A stretch of 64,000 bases of DNA from Pseudomonadota bacterium (GTDB lineage Bacteria > Pseudomonadota > Gammaproteobacteria > Burkholderiales > Casimicrobiaceae). The stretch lies in the NCBI GenBank assembly GCA_009786025.1, contig WQUA01000002.1:5529-69528 (forward strand), given 5' to 3'. Below, piece after piece: positions 31,926-37,662 of the stretch. Made by a program: the position numbers and the translations under genes. The notes under the pieces are model-generated. The model was not told where the DNA came from and did no database searches. It saw only the letters and a program-made list of their open reading frames with translations. Positions within the stretch are counted from its first letter, which is position 1. Every line of letters starts with the position of its first letter.

Positions 31926-31993
31926 ACTGGCTTCCCTCTCCCCGCCCCTCTTCGGGAGAGGGGAGAGGGCCATCTGATTTCTGATGCCTGATC
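31926..31993. repeat. Intergenic repeat between dedA and secF
   Basis: CCCTCTCCCCGCCCCTCTTCGGGAGAGGGGAGAGGG + CTGATTTCTGATGCCTGATC. Confidence 0.75.
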
Positions 31994-32936
31994 ACGGCAT
32001 GATTTTTTCGGCTTCCAGTCCAGTTTTCTTGCGTTCGGGCTTCACCAGATTTTCACGCGAAACGCCGAGCCACATCACCAGCGACGCCATCACCAATGCC
32101 GCCGAATACATGCCGAACAAAATACCGATGGTCAGCGCCATTGCAAAATAATGCAGCGCCTCGCCGCCGAAAATCAGCATCGAGAGCACCATTAACTGTG
32201 TTGACAAGTGCGTGATGACCGTCCGCGAGATGGTGCTGGTGATCGCGCTGTCGATCACGTGCGGCACACTGGCGTTTCGCATCTTGCGGAAATTTTCACG
32301 AATCCGGTCGGCGATAACCACCGATTCGTTAACGGAGTAACCGAGCACAGCCAACACCGCCGCTAACACCGGCAGCGAAAATTCCCACTGGAAAAACGCG
32401 AAAAAGCCGAGGATGATCACAATATCGTGCAAGTTGGCGACGATCGCCGAAATAGCGAAACGCCACTCAAAGCGCAGCGACAGATAAATGATGACGCCGA
32501 TCACCACGAACAGCAGCGCCAGCGCACCGTTTTGATACAGCTCTTTGCCGACTTGCGGGCCGACGAAATCGACGCGCTTTTGCACCACTTCGCTGTTGTC
32601 CGCCCGTAGCGCCGACATCACCCGTTCTGACAGCTGCGCGCTGGAAATGCCTTCCTTCAGCGGCATCCGGATCAACGCTGTATCCGACGAGCCGAAGCTT
32701 TGCACAGTAAACTCACCGAGGTTCAACGTGTCAATCGTGGCGCGAATATGTTCCAGGTCGGCGACTTGCTTATAGCTGATTTCCATCACGGTGCCGCCGC
32801 GGAAATCGACGCCGAAATTCAAGCCCTTGTGCCACAGGAAAAAAATCGCCAGAAGAAACGTCACCAGTGAGATGATGTTGAACTTCAGCGCATGGCGCAT
32901 GAACGGGATGTCGCGTGTAAACCGGAAAAATTCCAT
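31992..32936 (-). CDS. secF: Protein translocase subunit SecF
   Basis: LNFGVDFRGGTVMEISYK; YSVNESVVIADRIRENFRKMR. Confidence 0.97.
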   Translation of the reverse strand: MEFFRFTRDIPFMRHALKFNIISLVTFLLAIFFLWHKGLNFGVDFRGGTVMEISYKQVADLEHIRATIDTLNLGEFTVQSFGSSDTALIRMPLKEGISSAQLSERVMSALRADNSEVVQKRVDFVGPQVGKELYQNGALALLFVVIGVIIYLSLRFEWRFAISAIVANLHDIVIILGFFAFFQWEFSLPVLAAVLAVLGYSVNESVVIADRIRENFRKMRNASVPHVIDSAITSTISRTVITHLSTQLMVLSMLIFGGEALHYFAMALTIGILFGMYSAALVMASLVMWLGVSRENLVKPERKKTGLEAEKIMP

Positions 32937-32974: not shown

Positions 32975-34879
32975 TTATTTCGCGCCTTTTTCAGCCTTGG
33001 CGTGACGAGCGCCGTCAGGCGCCGCAAAATTGGCCAGGGCTTCGACCGACGGCTTCCATACTTGTCCGATCGAAATTTTATCGAGTCTCTTTTTGTGTCC
33101 GTAAATCACCGACACCAGGCCGCGCGATACGAACACCGCCGAGAACATCGAAGTCAAGATGCCCAGACAGTGCACCACTGCAAACCCGCGCACCGGCCCG
33201 CTGCCGAACATGAACAGCGAAATGCCGGCAATCAGGTTCGTGACGTTCGAGTCGAGAATCGTGCTCCAGGCGCGGTCATAGCCTGACGCGATCGCCGTGT
33301 GCGGCGACGCGCCCCAGCGCAATTCTTCGCGAATACGTTCATTGATCAGCACGTTGGCGTCGATCGAGATACCGAGCGTCAGTGCAATAGCGGCAATACC
33401 CGGCAGCGTTAACGTCGCCTGTAGCGCTGACAATAACGCCACCAGCAGCACCAAGTTCACGGTCAGCGCCGTTGCCGACACCAGTCCCATCACCATGTAG
33501 TATGCGCAAATAAACAACGCCAGCACGATGAAACCGCCCAGCACCGAGTGAAAGCCTTTTAGAATGTTGGCTTCTCCAAGCGACGCGCCGACCGATCGTT
33601 CCTCGACAATCTCCATCGGAGCCGCCAGTGCGCCAGCGCGCATCAGCAACGCAATATCGTTCGCCTCCCGCGTCGTCATCGCGCCGGAAATCTGCACCCG
33701 TCCGCCACCGATTTCCTCGCGGATCGTCGGCGCGGTGATCACTTCCGACTGATTGCGCTCGACCAGCAGGATCGCCATCCCTTTGCCGACGTTTTCGCGT
33801 GTCACATCCCTGAAAATCCGCGCACCAACATCATCGAGATTGACGTTGACCGAGGGCTGATTGGATTCCGTATAGCCTGGCTGCGCGTCACGGATACGGT
33901 CGCCAGTCAGCACCACCTGCCGCTTGACGAGAACCGGCTGTCCATTGCGATCCGTGTACAAGTCGCTGCCGAACGGCACTTGCCCGCGCAACGCCGATTC
34001 CCGCGCGCCCGGCGTTTCATCAACCATCCGGATTTCCAGCGTGGCCGTGCGCCCAATAATCGACTTGGCGCGCGCCGTATCGTCAACGCCGGGCAACTGT
34101 ACAACGATGCGATCAGCGCCGGCCTGTTGAACGATCGGCTCAGCAACGCCCAATTCATTGACGCGATTGCGCAGCGTCGCCATATTTTGAACGACCGCGT
34201 TGTCCTGAATCCGTTTTTGCTCCGTTGCCGTTAACGACGCCACCAGCTGCAAATCGTCGTCACCGCCACGCGGCGCCAATTGCAATTCGGGGTTGCTGCG
34301 ATTGATCTGATTGCGGGCGTCTTCACGCGCTTGCGCGTCGCGAAACCGCATAACAACCGTGTGATCTTCGCGCAAAACGCCGCGATTCTGAATCTTTTTG
34401 TCGCGCAGCAACGTCCGCAAGTCCGTTGAGTAACGGTCCGCCGCCTTGTCGAGCGCGCCCTTCATATCGACTTGCAGCAGAAAATGTACCCCGCCGCGAA
34501 GATCCAGACCCAGATACATCGGTTTGGCGTTGATTTTTTCCATCCAGGCCGGCGTCGAAGGCAACTGGTTCAGCGCAACGATGTAATCGTTGCCGAGCTT
34601 CTCTTGCAGCACATCGCGCGCCTGCATCTGGGTGTCTCGGCTCGACATCTTGAGTCTGACACCGACCGGATCGACGAAACCGTCGCCGTATGCGATGTTT
34701 GCATTCTTGAGCGTATTCTGCACCCGCGTCAGCAGCGCGCTATCGACCTTGACGGTAGCTTTGATGGACGACACCTGTATCGCCGGCACTTCCGGAAAGA
34801 AGTTGGGAGCGGTGTACAACGCGCCCAGCAACACAGCGACAATGATGATAAGGTATTTCCAGAGAGGATAACGGTTCAT
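32975..34879 (-). CDS. secD: Protein translocase subunit SecD
   Basis: MNRYPLWKYLIIIVAVLLGALYTAPNFFPEVPAIQVSS; MYLGLDLRGGVHFLLQVDM; SIDANVLINERIREELRWG. Confidence 0.97.
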   Translation of the reverse strand: MNRYPLWKYLIIIVAVLLGALYTAPNFFPEVPAIQVSSIKATVKVDSALLTRVQNTLKNANIAYGDGFVDPVGVRLKMSSRDTQMQARDVLQEKLGNDYIVALNQLPSTPAWMEKINAKPMYLGLDLRGGVHFLLQVDMKGALDKAADRYSTDLRTLLRDKKIQNRGVLREDHTVVMRFRDAQAREDARNQINRSNPELQLAPRGGDDDLQLVASLTATEQKRIQDNAVVQNMATLRNRVNELGVAEPIVQQAGADRIVVQLPGVDDTARAKSIIGRTATLEIRMVDETPGARESALRGQVPFGSDLYTDRNGQPVLVKRQVVLTGDRIRDAQPGYTESNQPSVNVNLDDVGARIFRDVTRENVGKGMAILLVERNQSEVITAPTIREEIGGGRVQISGAMTTREANDIALLMRAGALAAPMEIVEERSVGASLGEANILKGFHSVLGGFIVLALFICAYYMVMGLVSATALTVNLVLLVALLSALQATLTLPGIAAIALTLGISIDANVLINERIREELRWGASPHTAIASGYDRAWSTILDSNVTNLIAGISLFMFGSGPVRGFAVVHCLGILTSMFSAVFVSRGLVSVIYGHKKRLDKISIGQVWKPSVEALANFAAPDGARHAKAEKGAK

Positions 34880-35002: not shown

Positions 35003-35332
35003 TTAAAAATCCTTGATCGTGCCCTTGGGCAACAGTTGCGTCACCGCCGCGCGCTGCACCAATACTTCCGTGTCCTTGGCGATCTCCAGCGTCATCGTCG
35101 ATTCGTCAAGATTGGCGATCCGGCCGATCATGCCGCCGGCGGTTGCCACTTCCTCACCTTTTTGCAGCGCCAAAATCATGGCGCGGTGCTCTTTCGCCTT
35201 TTTCTGTTGCGGACGGATCAGCAGAAACCAAAAAGCAACGAACATCAACACCATCAGGCCGATGGACGTCATCTGCGAGGTGCCCTGTTGAGCGCCTTCG
35301 GCGGCCTGGGCAAATGCGGAACTGATAAACAC
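35003..35332 (-). CDS. yajC: Preprotein translocase subunit YajC (GTG start at 35332 likely; ATG at 35344 also open)
   Basis: (V)FISSAFAQAAEGAQQGTSQMTSIGLMVLMFVAFWFLLIRPQQKKAKEHRAMILALQKGEEVATAGGMIGRI. Confidence 0.95.
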   Translation of the reverse strand: MFISSAFAQAAEGAQQGTSQMTSIGLMVLMFVAFWFLLIRPQQKKAKEHRAMILALQKGEEVATAGGMIGRIANLDESTMTLEIAKDTEVLVQRAAVTQLLPKGTIKDF

Positions 35333-35608
35333 AAGAACCTCCATTAAATAAAAGAAATGAAAACCAAACAGCCGGGGCGTGATGGCTTCTCAACTTATGC
35401 TGACGGCAACTCCGTCGCCTCCCGCCGCGCCGACCCGGATCAAGCCGAACCGCGCGGAAAACAGGGTAGTTTACCAGAATGTATGGAAAGCCTTGCCGAT
35501 TTGGCCGCTACACGGCGGCATCCGAGCGAACCGGATGGAGAGCCGCGTCCCCGATGGCATATCCGGAGCGGAGGCTCGGCGCCCATTGGAACAGGGTCGG
35601 CAGCGCTT

Positions 35609-36262
35609 CTATCTGACGAATGTGTTTTTCACGCGACGCGAATACAGCATGTAGGGGATCCATATCATGGCGGCACACAATGAACGATATACTTCGGGCA
35701 GGGTCTCGGCGCTGCTTTCGGCGTCGGCGACAGGAAGAAATTTGCAGGCCAGGAAATCGGCGGTGACGATAATAATATTCAGCGCCATGTACCCGATAAA
35801 AACTTTTGGAAAGTACCGCGATTTCGTGAAGAAAAGGTAAAGCGAGCACCCGGCCAGCGCGATGATAACGAAATTACTGGCGACCTCGGAAAGGATCAGG
35901 GGCGCCCAAGCGGCGTGATAATGTTCAGCCCCCGGCGTCGTGAGCGCCTCCCACGACCCGTTGGTAAAAATGGGGAGAAAATCGACGGCCAAATAGTACA
36001 GCAAGCGCAAAATCGTGCCGATCAGCCCGAGGCAGACGAGAATCAGCCAGCCGCCAAGCCCCTTCAGTTCTTCGGCGGCGGCTGTCTCACCTTCGCCTTG
36101 CTGTAAGGTGGCGTGCGGCTCCTTCGCCCGTTTTCGCTGTCGGCGGATCAGATAAACCCAAAAGATGGCGAGGACCAAAGCCAGCGCCGCCAGCGGCGCC
36201 CACGACCCGTTTCCTTGCTGAACGTCAGCAGCAGCTTGCGCAAAAGCAAAGTTTATAAACAC
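35609..36262 (-). CDS. Chimeric protein: YajC-like N-terminus fused to a DUF2569 membrane domain
   Basis: (V)FINFAFAQAAADVQQGNGSWAPLAALALVLAIFWVYLIRRQRKRAKEPHATLQQGEGE (YajC-like) then LGGWLILVCLGLIGTILRLLYY...WAPLILSEVASNFVIIALAGCSLYLFFTKSRYFPKVFIGYM...IWIPYMLYSRRVKNTFVR (DUF2569-like). Confidence 0.8.
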   Translation of the reverse strand: MFINFAFAQAAADVQQGNGSWAPLAALALVLAIFWVYLIRRQRKRAKEPHATLQQGEGETAAAEELKGLGGWLILVCLGLIGTILRLLYYLAVDFLPIFTNGSWEALTTPGAEHYHAAWAPLILSEVASNFVIIALAGCSLYLFFTKSRYFPKVFIGYMALNIIIVTADFLACKFLPVADAESSAETLPEVYRSLCAAMIWIPYMLYSRRVKNTFVR

Positions 36263-36467
36263 AAACCCCTCCTTTTGATCTGTCGAAAAACCTGTTGCGG
36301 CAATAGTGCTACGCCTCGGGTTGGAGTGGAATATACACCAACAGCGTAGTTTATCGAATGCATCGGAAAGCGCGTAGGGCGAGATTTATCTCGCCATTTC
36401 GGACCGCCCGGTGGGCACGGTTGTTCCGTTATCGCCTGTCTAGGCGTCGGGACTCGCCTGCTCCGAC

Positions 36468-36810
36468 CTATATATCCGCCAGGTCGCCAGACATAGACAG
36501 GGCAATAAGCCTCTGCAACTCCCTTTTCAGGGAAACAGCCATGCCGGCATTATCCAATCCATACTTGGCGACCGTGCCGCTCAATTCTTTCTTGCCCAAA
36601 AACATCAGAACCCCCGCTATATACAACACAGATTTGGCAGCAGCCATCCCCTCGTAAGGCCGCATCGCAACGCCGGTCAAAAAATTTTCAACAATCACAT
36701 CTTTGATTGTGTTTTCATATTTTGAGAAATGATCATACAGCTTGTTTAATTGGGTCTTCCAAAAAAAACTGCTCAGCTTCTTTGGCAGATAATTTTATTG
36801 AATTCAACAT
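36468..36810 (-). pseudogene. Frameshifted small ORF (unknown function) with an A8/T8 tract
   Basis: Frame A: MLNSIKLSAKEAEQFF-(LEDPIKQAV*); shifting one base in the 8-nt tract at 36761-36768 gives ...FFWKTQLNKLYDHFSKYENTIKDVIVENFLTGVAMRPYEGMAAAKSVLYIAGVLMFLGKKELSGTVAKYGLDNAGMAVSLKRELQRLIALSMSGDLADI. Confidence 0.5.
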
Positions 36811-36873: not shown

Positions 36874-37662
36874 TCAGTTATCGCCCGTTCGAGCGTCGGG
36901 ATTCGCAAGCCCACCCTGACCTGCGCAAACTTCGGGCTTCCTTTTCAGGGCATCCAGAACCCTTCTTTTAACCTCTTTATCATTGGTCGTGACATAGCGG
37001 GGGTATTTTTTTGCAACTTCTTCATTGACGATAACCCCCTGCTTTTGAACCCCCTCAAGTTTATATTCATTCTTATAGTCTTTCCAGGAGAAGAATATAT
37101 CGTTGAATTTTTCATCCGGCTTATATTCAGGGTCTTTTGAGATCACCTCCCAGTCTCCCCCTGTTTGATCATCCAATAAAATAAAGTCATTGATCAGAAT
37201 GGGCGCAATCAACCATTCATTATCTTTTGAGCAATCAAATATAGGGTGTTTTGACACACAGTCGAATATTTCGGCAATGGTTCCGCTCCTCAGTTTAAAG
37301 ACGAGCCGCCCAAAGCCGTATAACTCCTGATCGATTTTAAACGAAAAGATGTCTCCAACCTCCGGCTTTATTCGTTTTTTCCGCTTCCCGGTTTTAATCA
37401 TCACTTTTTCAACGCGAAGCTCTTCAAAATGATTTATGACCTCACTGTTGGCGTTTACAGAAAAGCCCAGCGTCAACAGGTGCTGCAACTCATCAAGCGT
37501 TGGTTTCCTGTGCAAATCTTTTTCATACGCAATTGAGATTGATTGTAAAAACCGTCGCACCTCATCCAAAACAAAATCGCCAACTTCTGCATCAGAATCA
37601 TTGTTAATTTTCCACCAGCCCATATCAGAACCCATCTCAAAATCGTTTAAGCAGCATAGCAC
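36874..37662 (-). CDS. Imm26-like immunity protein with additional N-terminal domain (start possibly about 37623-37635)
   Basis: KPEVGDIFSFKIDQELYGFGRLVFKLRSGTIAEIFDCVSKHPI Imm26-type pattern; N-term MGWWKINNDSDAEVGDFVLDEVRRFLQSISIAYEKDLHRKPTLDELQHLLTLGF; low GC. Confidence 0.6.
   Translation of the reverse strand: MLCCLNDFEMGSDMGWWKINNDSDAEVGDFVLDEVRRFLQSISIAYEKDLHRKPTLDELQHLLTLGFSVNANSEVINHFEELRVEKVMIKTGKRKKRIKPEVGDIFSFKIDQELYGFGRLVFKLRSGTIAEIFDCVSKHPIFDCSKDNEWLIAPILINDFILLDDQTGGDWEVISKDPEYKPDEKFNDIFFSWKDYKNEYKLEGVQKQGVIVNEEVAKKYPRYVTTNDKEVKRRVLDALKRKPEVCAGQGGLANPDARTGDN

Follow-up and report, generated by a model that had tools for sequence, protein, structure and literature searches.

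How does a DUF2569 membrane domain come to begin like the translocase subunit YajC? This question is raised by an open reading frame of the window, i.e., the whole stretch of 64,000 nucleotides analysed here from a Casimicrobiaceae genome, which is located on the strand of yajC-secD-secF and immediately ahead of these genes, with yajC following 264 bp downstream (Table 1). The first-pass annotation had proposed a duplicated yajC 5' end fused to a DUF2569 domain, a proposal supported by sequence and codon pattern as well as by the structure model and comparative genomics. The reading preferred here, to which a probability of about 0.7 is assigned, is that duplication of the yajC 5' end and acquisition of a DUF2569 domain gave rise to a YajC-anchored five-helix inner-membrane protein.

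Table 1. Features of the fusion locus, in positions of the window
Feature	Position	Strand	Remarks
YajC-DUF2569 fusion gene	35609..36262	-	217 aa, GTG start
YajC-derived part, residues 1-57	36092..36262	-	N-tail without K/R, helix 22-46, basic RRQRKRAKE
Linker, residues 58-66	36065..36091	-	Low confidence in structure model
DUF2569 domain, residues 67-216	35615..36064	-	PF10754 108.7 bits; four long helices, pLDDT mostly >90
Shine-Dalgarno-like AGGAGGGG	36266..36273	-	Before fusion GTG; GGAGG common to yajC
yajC, likely donor	35003..35344	-	PF02699 95.6 bits; GTG start 35332 or in-frame ATG 35344
secD	32975..34879	-	Gene order by yajC and homology to congener locus; not profile-named
secF	31992..32936	-	Gene order and homology to congener locus; not profile-named
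Imm26-like gene	36874..37662	-	PF15428 E 1e-8; G+C 0.428; between tgt and fusion

Composition of the fusion gene

The GTG of the fusion is the earliest usable start past the preceding stop, and from there on a YajC-type N-terminal helix is followed by a basic segment of the RPQxKxxKE type. Pairwise BLASTP identified 27 of 60 leader residues to be identical to the adjacent YajC (45%, 49.7 bits, E 4e-13), whereby the helix is the least conserved segment (6 of 23 residues, codons 18-40). The best local score of 123 was compared with 5000 segment-wise shuffles, which preserved the composition of tail, helix and basic segment each separately (mean 30.5, sd 7.2, maximum 68), and was found to lie ~13 sd above. 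Homology through the ribosome binding site and the GTG into the protein, as described earlier, is hence evident from the sequence, while its extent had to be corrected, as it spans ~57 codons and ends near residue 57, with a linker (residues 58-66) preceding the second domain. On the DNA level, the likeness starts at the common GGAGG and takes in the GTG, whereas no similarity was seen 5' of the GGAGG, meaning that the yajC promoter was either not copied or that the likeness has decayed. Promoter-like sites were not found above chance expectation. An in-frame ATG is located 12 bases 5' of the yajC GTG, and the fusion is devoid of such an ATG.

The four-helix domain reported to follow the leader was confirmed as DUF2569 by Pfam, with residues 67-216 matching at E 4.5e-31 (108.7 bits versus a cut-off of 26.5) and with positions 2-143 of the 143 positions of the PF10754 profile being covered, which documents a full-length domain. 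Residues invariant in an alignment with close DUF2569 relatives are kept. The YajC match of the fusion (residues 25-53, E 4.9e-4) reaches 20.4 bits and is thus below the cut-off of 28.2, because 29 of 78 profile positions remain: positions 4-32 of PF02699 are covered, whereas positions 33-78, i.e., the YajC cytoplasmic domain, are unmatched. Being below the whole-domain cut-off and devoid of the cytoplasmic domain, the fusion is not classed as a YajC.

Compared with YajC (PF02699), a SecDF-associated translocase subunit, the fusion possesses the same ribosome binding site, start, N-tail, helix and LIRxQxKxAKE segment, but the cytoplasmic domain is replaced by DUF2569. Compared with the small four-helix membrane proteins of the DUF2569 family (PF10754), the domain is complete with its conserved residues, but a YajC-derived leader takes the place of the usual short hydrophilic N-tail. 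The fusion is therefore a new domain combination of known families and not a new kind of system.

Integrity and maintenance of the reading frame

The fusion is known from one draft assembly with a contamination estimate of 8.5%, in which the region is present twice, on contigs C2 and C6, which are 100% identical across the 12 kb compared. These are redundant contigs and give no independent support for the fusion; they may account for part of the contamination estimate. Such features of the draft would fit an assembly chimera, an explanation to which we give next to no credence, since a leader only 45% identical to the genome's own yajC cannot result from a misjoin of that gene, since the single open frame carries coding-type changes, and since the 106-kb contig carries the expected tgt and secDF neighbours.

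Coding constraint on the leader was revealed by a codon-position test comparing fusion and yajC over 41 codons of leader and basic motif. Of 82 sites at codon positions 1 and 2, 19 are different, versus 25 of 41 at position 3 (Fisher p 6e-5), and codons 1-17 show no difference at position 1, whereas agreement at position 3 is 29%. As the differences pile up at third codon positions, the leader is taken to be a maintained protein, and judged by this pattern the two copies look to be held by selection on the protein. Third-position G+C is 0.69 for the DUF2569 part, 0.71-0.72 for secD and yajC and 0.47 for the Imm26-like gene. The idea that the fusion is a useless rearrangement heading for decay, to which its presence in a single genome and the fast evolution of the leader would be suited, appears very improbable, given the intact frame of 217 codons, the retention of residues invariant in close DUF2569 relatives, the third-position excess and the host-like composition.

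Two further observations concern the tgt-fusion interval. For the Imm26-like gene, no toxin partner was noticed in the stretch read, and a 76-aa ORF (36468-36800, minus strand), whose frame is open upstream and has no usual start codon, is without Pfam match and may be a gene fragment.

Origin of leader and domain

PF10754 was found in one of 64 genomes of the family, namely the window's own, and is absent from the 63 others; in the partly overlapping samples of order, class and phylum it was found in 11 of 398, 6 of 369 and 30 of 399 genomes, respectively. E. coli, serving as control genome, has a DUF2569 member. The congeners possess yajC-secD-secF, preceded by tgt if the contig extends far enough, and have no DUF2569; their tgt-yajC interval is ~0.2 to 2.1 kb where readable. 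The closest DUF2569 domains are 41-45% identical and come from other families or another phylum, from which we infer that the domain was acquired horizontally.

A native DUF2569 leader as source of the N-terminus was rejected on the proteins sampled. Within a set of 35 DUF2569 proteins including that of the window, a Pfam scan gave no YajC match for the 34 others, and the N-termini sampled differ, being mostly short hydrophilic tails, with a few possessing unrelated helices or other domains. Together with the 63 family genomes without DUF2569, this argues that the leader is not native to the domain. Searching for other YajC-DUF2569 fusions likewise yielded none, which within the sample restricts the fusion to its own genome. 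Among secondary YajC matches in 299 genomes of the order, the two matching the N-terminal part were inspected and both were unrelated proteins (G134 and G199, chance matches, one a histidine kinase by eye). A DUF2569 gene near queA in genome G048 does not represent the same locus, as it adjoins genes looking like ruvB and ybgC. A Neomarinimicrobiota DUF2569 protein (L006:2422-3228) has a different type of long extension at its N-terminus (MSDEDLYLNVTDEV...).

The source of the leader was approached by comparing it with YajC proteins of differing relatedness. Those of the genus (n=9) gave scores of 101-124, highest or tied-highest, compared with 72-101 for YajC proteins from other genera and families. 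In a tree of 66 columns the leader resides on a branch of ~2 changes per site, and none of its placements was rejected (p-AU 0.51 with the genus, 0.46 with the own yajC, 0.12 with the rest of the family). YajC proteins of the genus are thus most alike to the leader, while the 66-column tree gives no placement. Local duplication followed by rapid change would be the simplest reading of these data, for which the phylogeny is no proof. Alternatively, the complete fusion may have been built in another lineage and transferred, landing by yajC via chance or via homology of the leader. The rest of the family being without DUF2569, the long leader branch and the low-G+C Imm26-like gene within the same interval are in line with such a transfer, which is nevertheless considered unlikely, as the leader is most like YajC proteins of the genus and as no donor fusion was found in roughly 1300 genomes or in plasmids and phages; the sole DUF2569 relative on plasmids is 27% identical, and phages gave none.

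A possible parallel to the YajC leader is found in the same phylum but another class, where DUF2569 proteins of five sampled g503 genomes and one g500 genome (L093-L096, L098, L099) open with M(G)xFSIWHWxIVLLL or a closely similar sequence. Like the fusion, these proteins carry DUF2569 behind a single N-terminal helix resembling a translocase subunit, in this case TatA of g503 and g500 (read in four genomes; L101-L105), to which the FSIWHW leaders are very similar. In six genomes that were searched for it, the FSIWHW DNA pattern occurs 1-3 times per genome, located at tatA, the DUF2569 gene or both of these, and in G1056 also at a third gene (L123), which is DUF805-like by eye and was not profile-named. 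In G874, where both positions were seen, the DUF2569 gene is ~113 kb away from tatA. The similarity covers ~14 residues (score 65 versus a shuffle maximum of 56) and Pfam identified no TatA match in these DUF2569 proteins, so that convergence is possible. A general principle, by which YajC and TatA, each with one N-out helix, would repeatedly donate anchors to four-helix proteins of the DUF2569 type, with DUF2569 serving as export accessory, is regarded as quite improbable.

Topology, possible docking and meaning

The structure model (mean pLDDT 81.7, alignment of 13 sequences) places the YajC helix 22-46 separate from the long DUF2569 helices, which span residues 73-100, 119-145, 151-174 and 182-207. 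A fold search of the PDB gave no significant match (best E 1.1). The N-tail has no lysine or arginine, the linker has 7, loops 1-2, 2-3 and 3-4 have 0, 3 and 1, and the C-tail has 4, a distribution which fits an N-outside, C-inside protein with five predicted membrane crossings. Given this charge pattern and topology, the YajC piece can be start, insertion signal and stop-transfer anchor.

The suggested course of events assumes that a partial duplication copied the yajC ribosome binding site and start codon together with the N-tail, the one transmembrane helix and the basic segment on the cytoplasmic side, and that the copy was joined, presumably in this order of events, to a DUF2569 domain that another lineage had supplied. 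This would yield an inner-membrane protein of five helices whose N-terminus faces outward. Its YajC part would provide the start of translation, the signal for insertion and the stop-transfer anchor, and would leave the four DUF2569 helices oriented as their charges predict.

Beyond anchoring, the YajC part may tentatively be viewed as a putative docking module, which would bring DUF2569 into the SecDF-YajC-YidC holotranslocon, or next to it, as an added subunit; the fusion would then compete with YajC or sit next to it. This idea supplements that of the anchor, and both can hold. Helix and basic segment are precisely the part retained, coding constraint holds on the basic motif, and the gene directly precedes yajC-secD-secF in the same orientation. 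Moreover, the 37-residue YajC chain of 2rdd, a crystal structure of the AcrB-YajC complex, aligns to the genome's own YajC over the stretch kept in the fusion; AcrB, like SecD, belongs to the RND family. Against docking stands the strong divergence of the helix region, and the location may merely mark where the duplication arose; the tie of the anchor to SecDF-YajC is putative. In E. coli, YajC associates with SecDF (PMC5095914, PMC5963308), which is in favour of docking; the role of YajC is unknown, and export in E. coli is not detectably impaired by yajC mutations alone (review PMC5963308).

A literature search found no functional study of DUF2569, and the mention encountered concerned E. 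coli integration sites; the fusion offers a handle on this family. It represents a clear case of a new membrane protein that arose when a housekeeping gene had its beginning copied in place. Should the anchor dock to SecDF, the fusion would be a natural tool for addressing the role of YajC and the contacts of its helix, and if translocase subunits have repeatedly been donors, such anchors would bring DUF2569 and similar domains to the export machinery.
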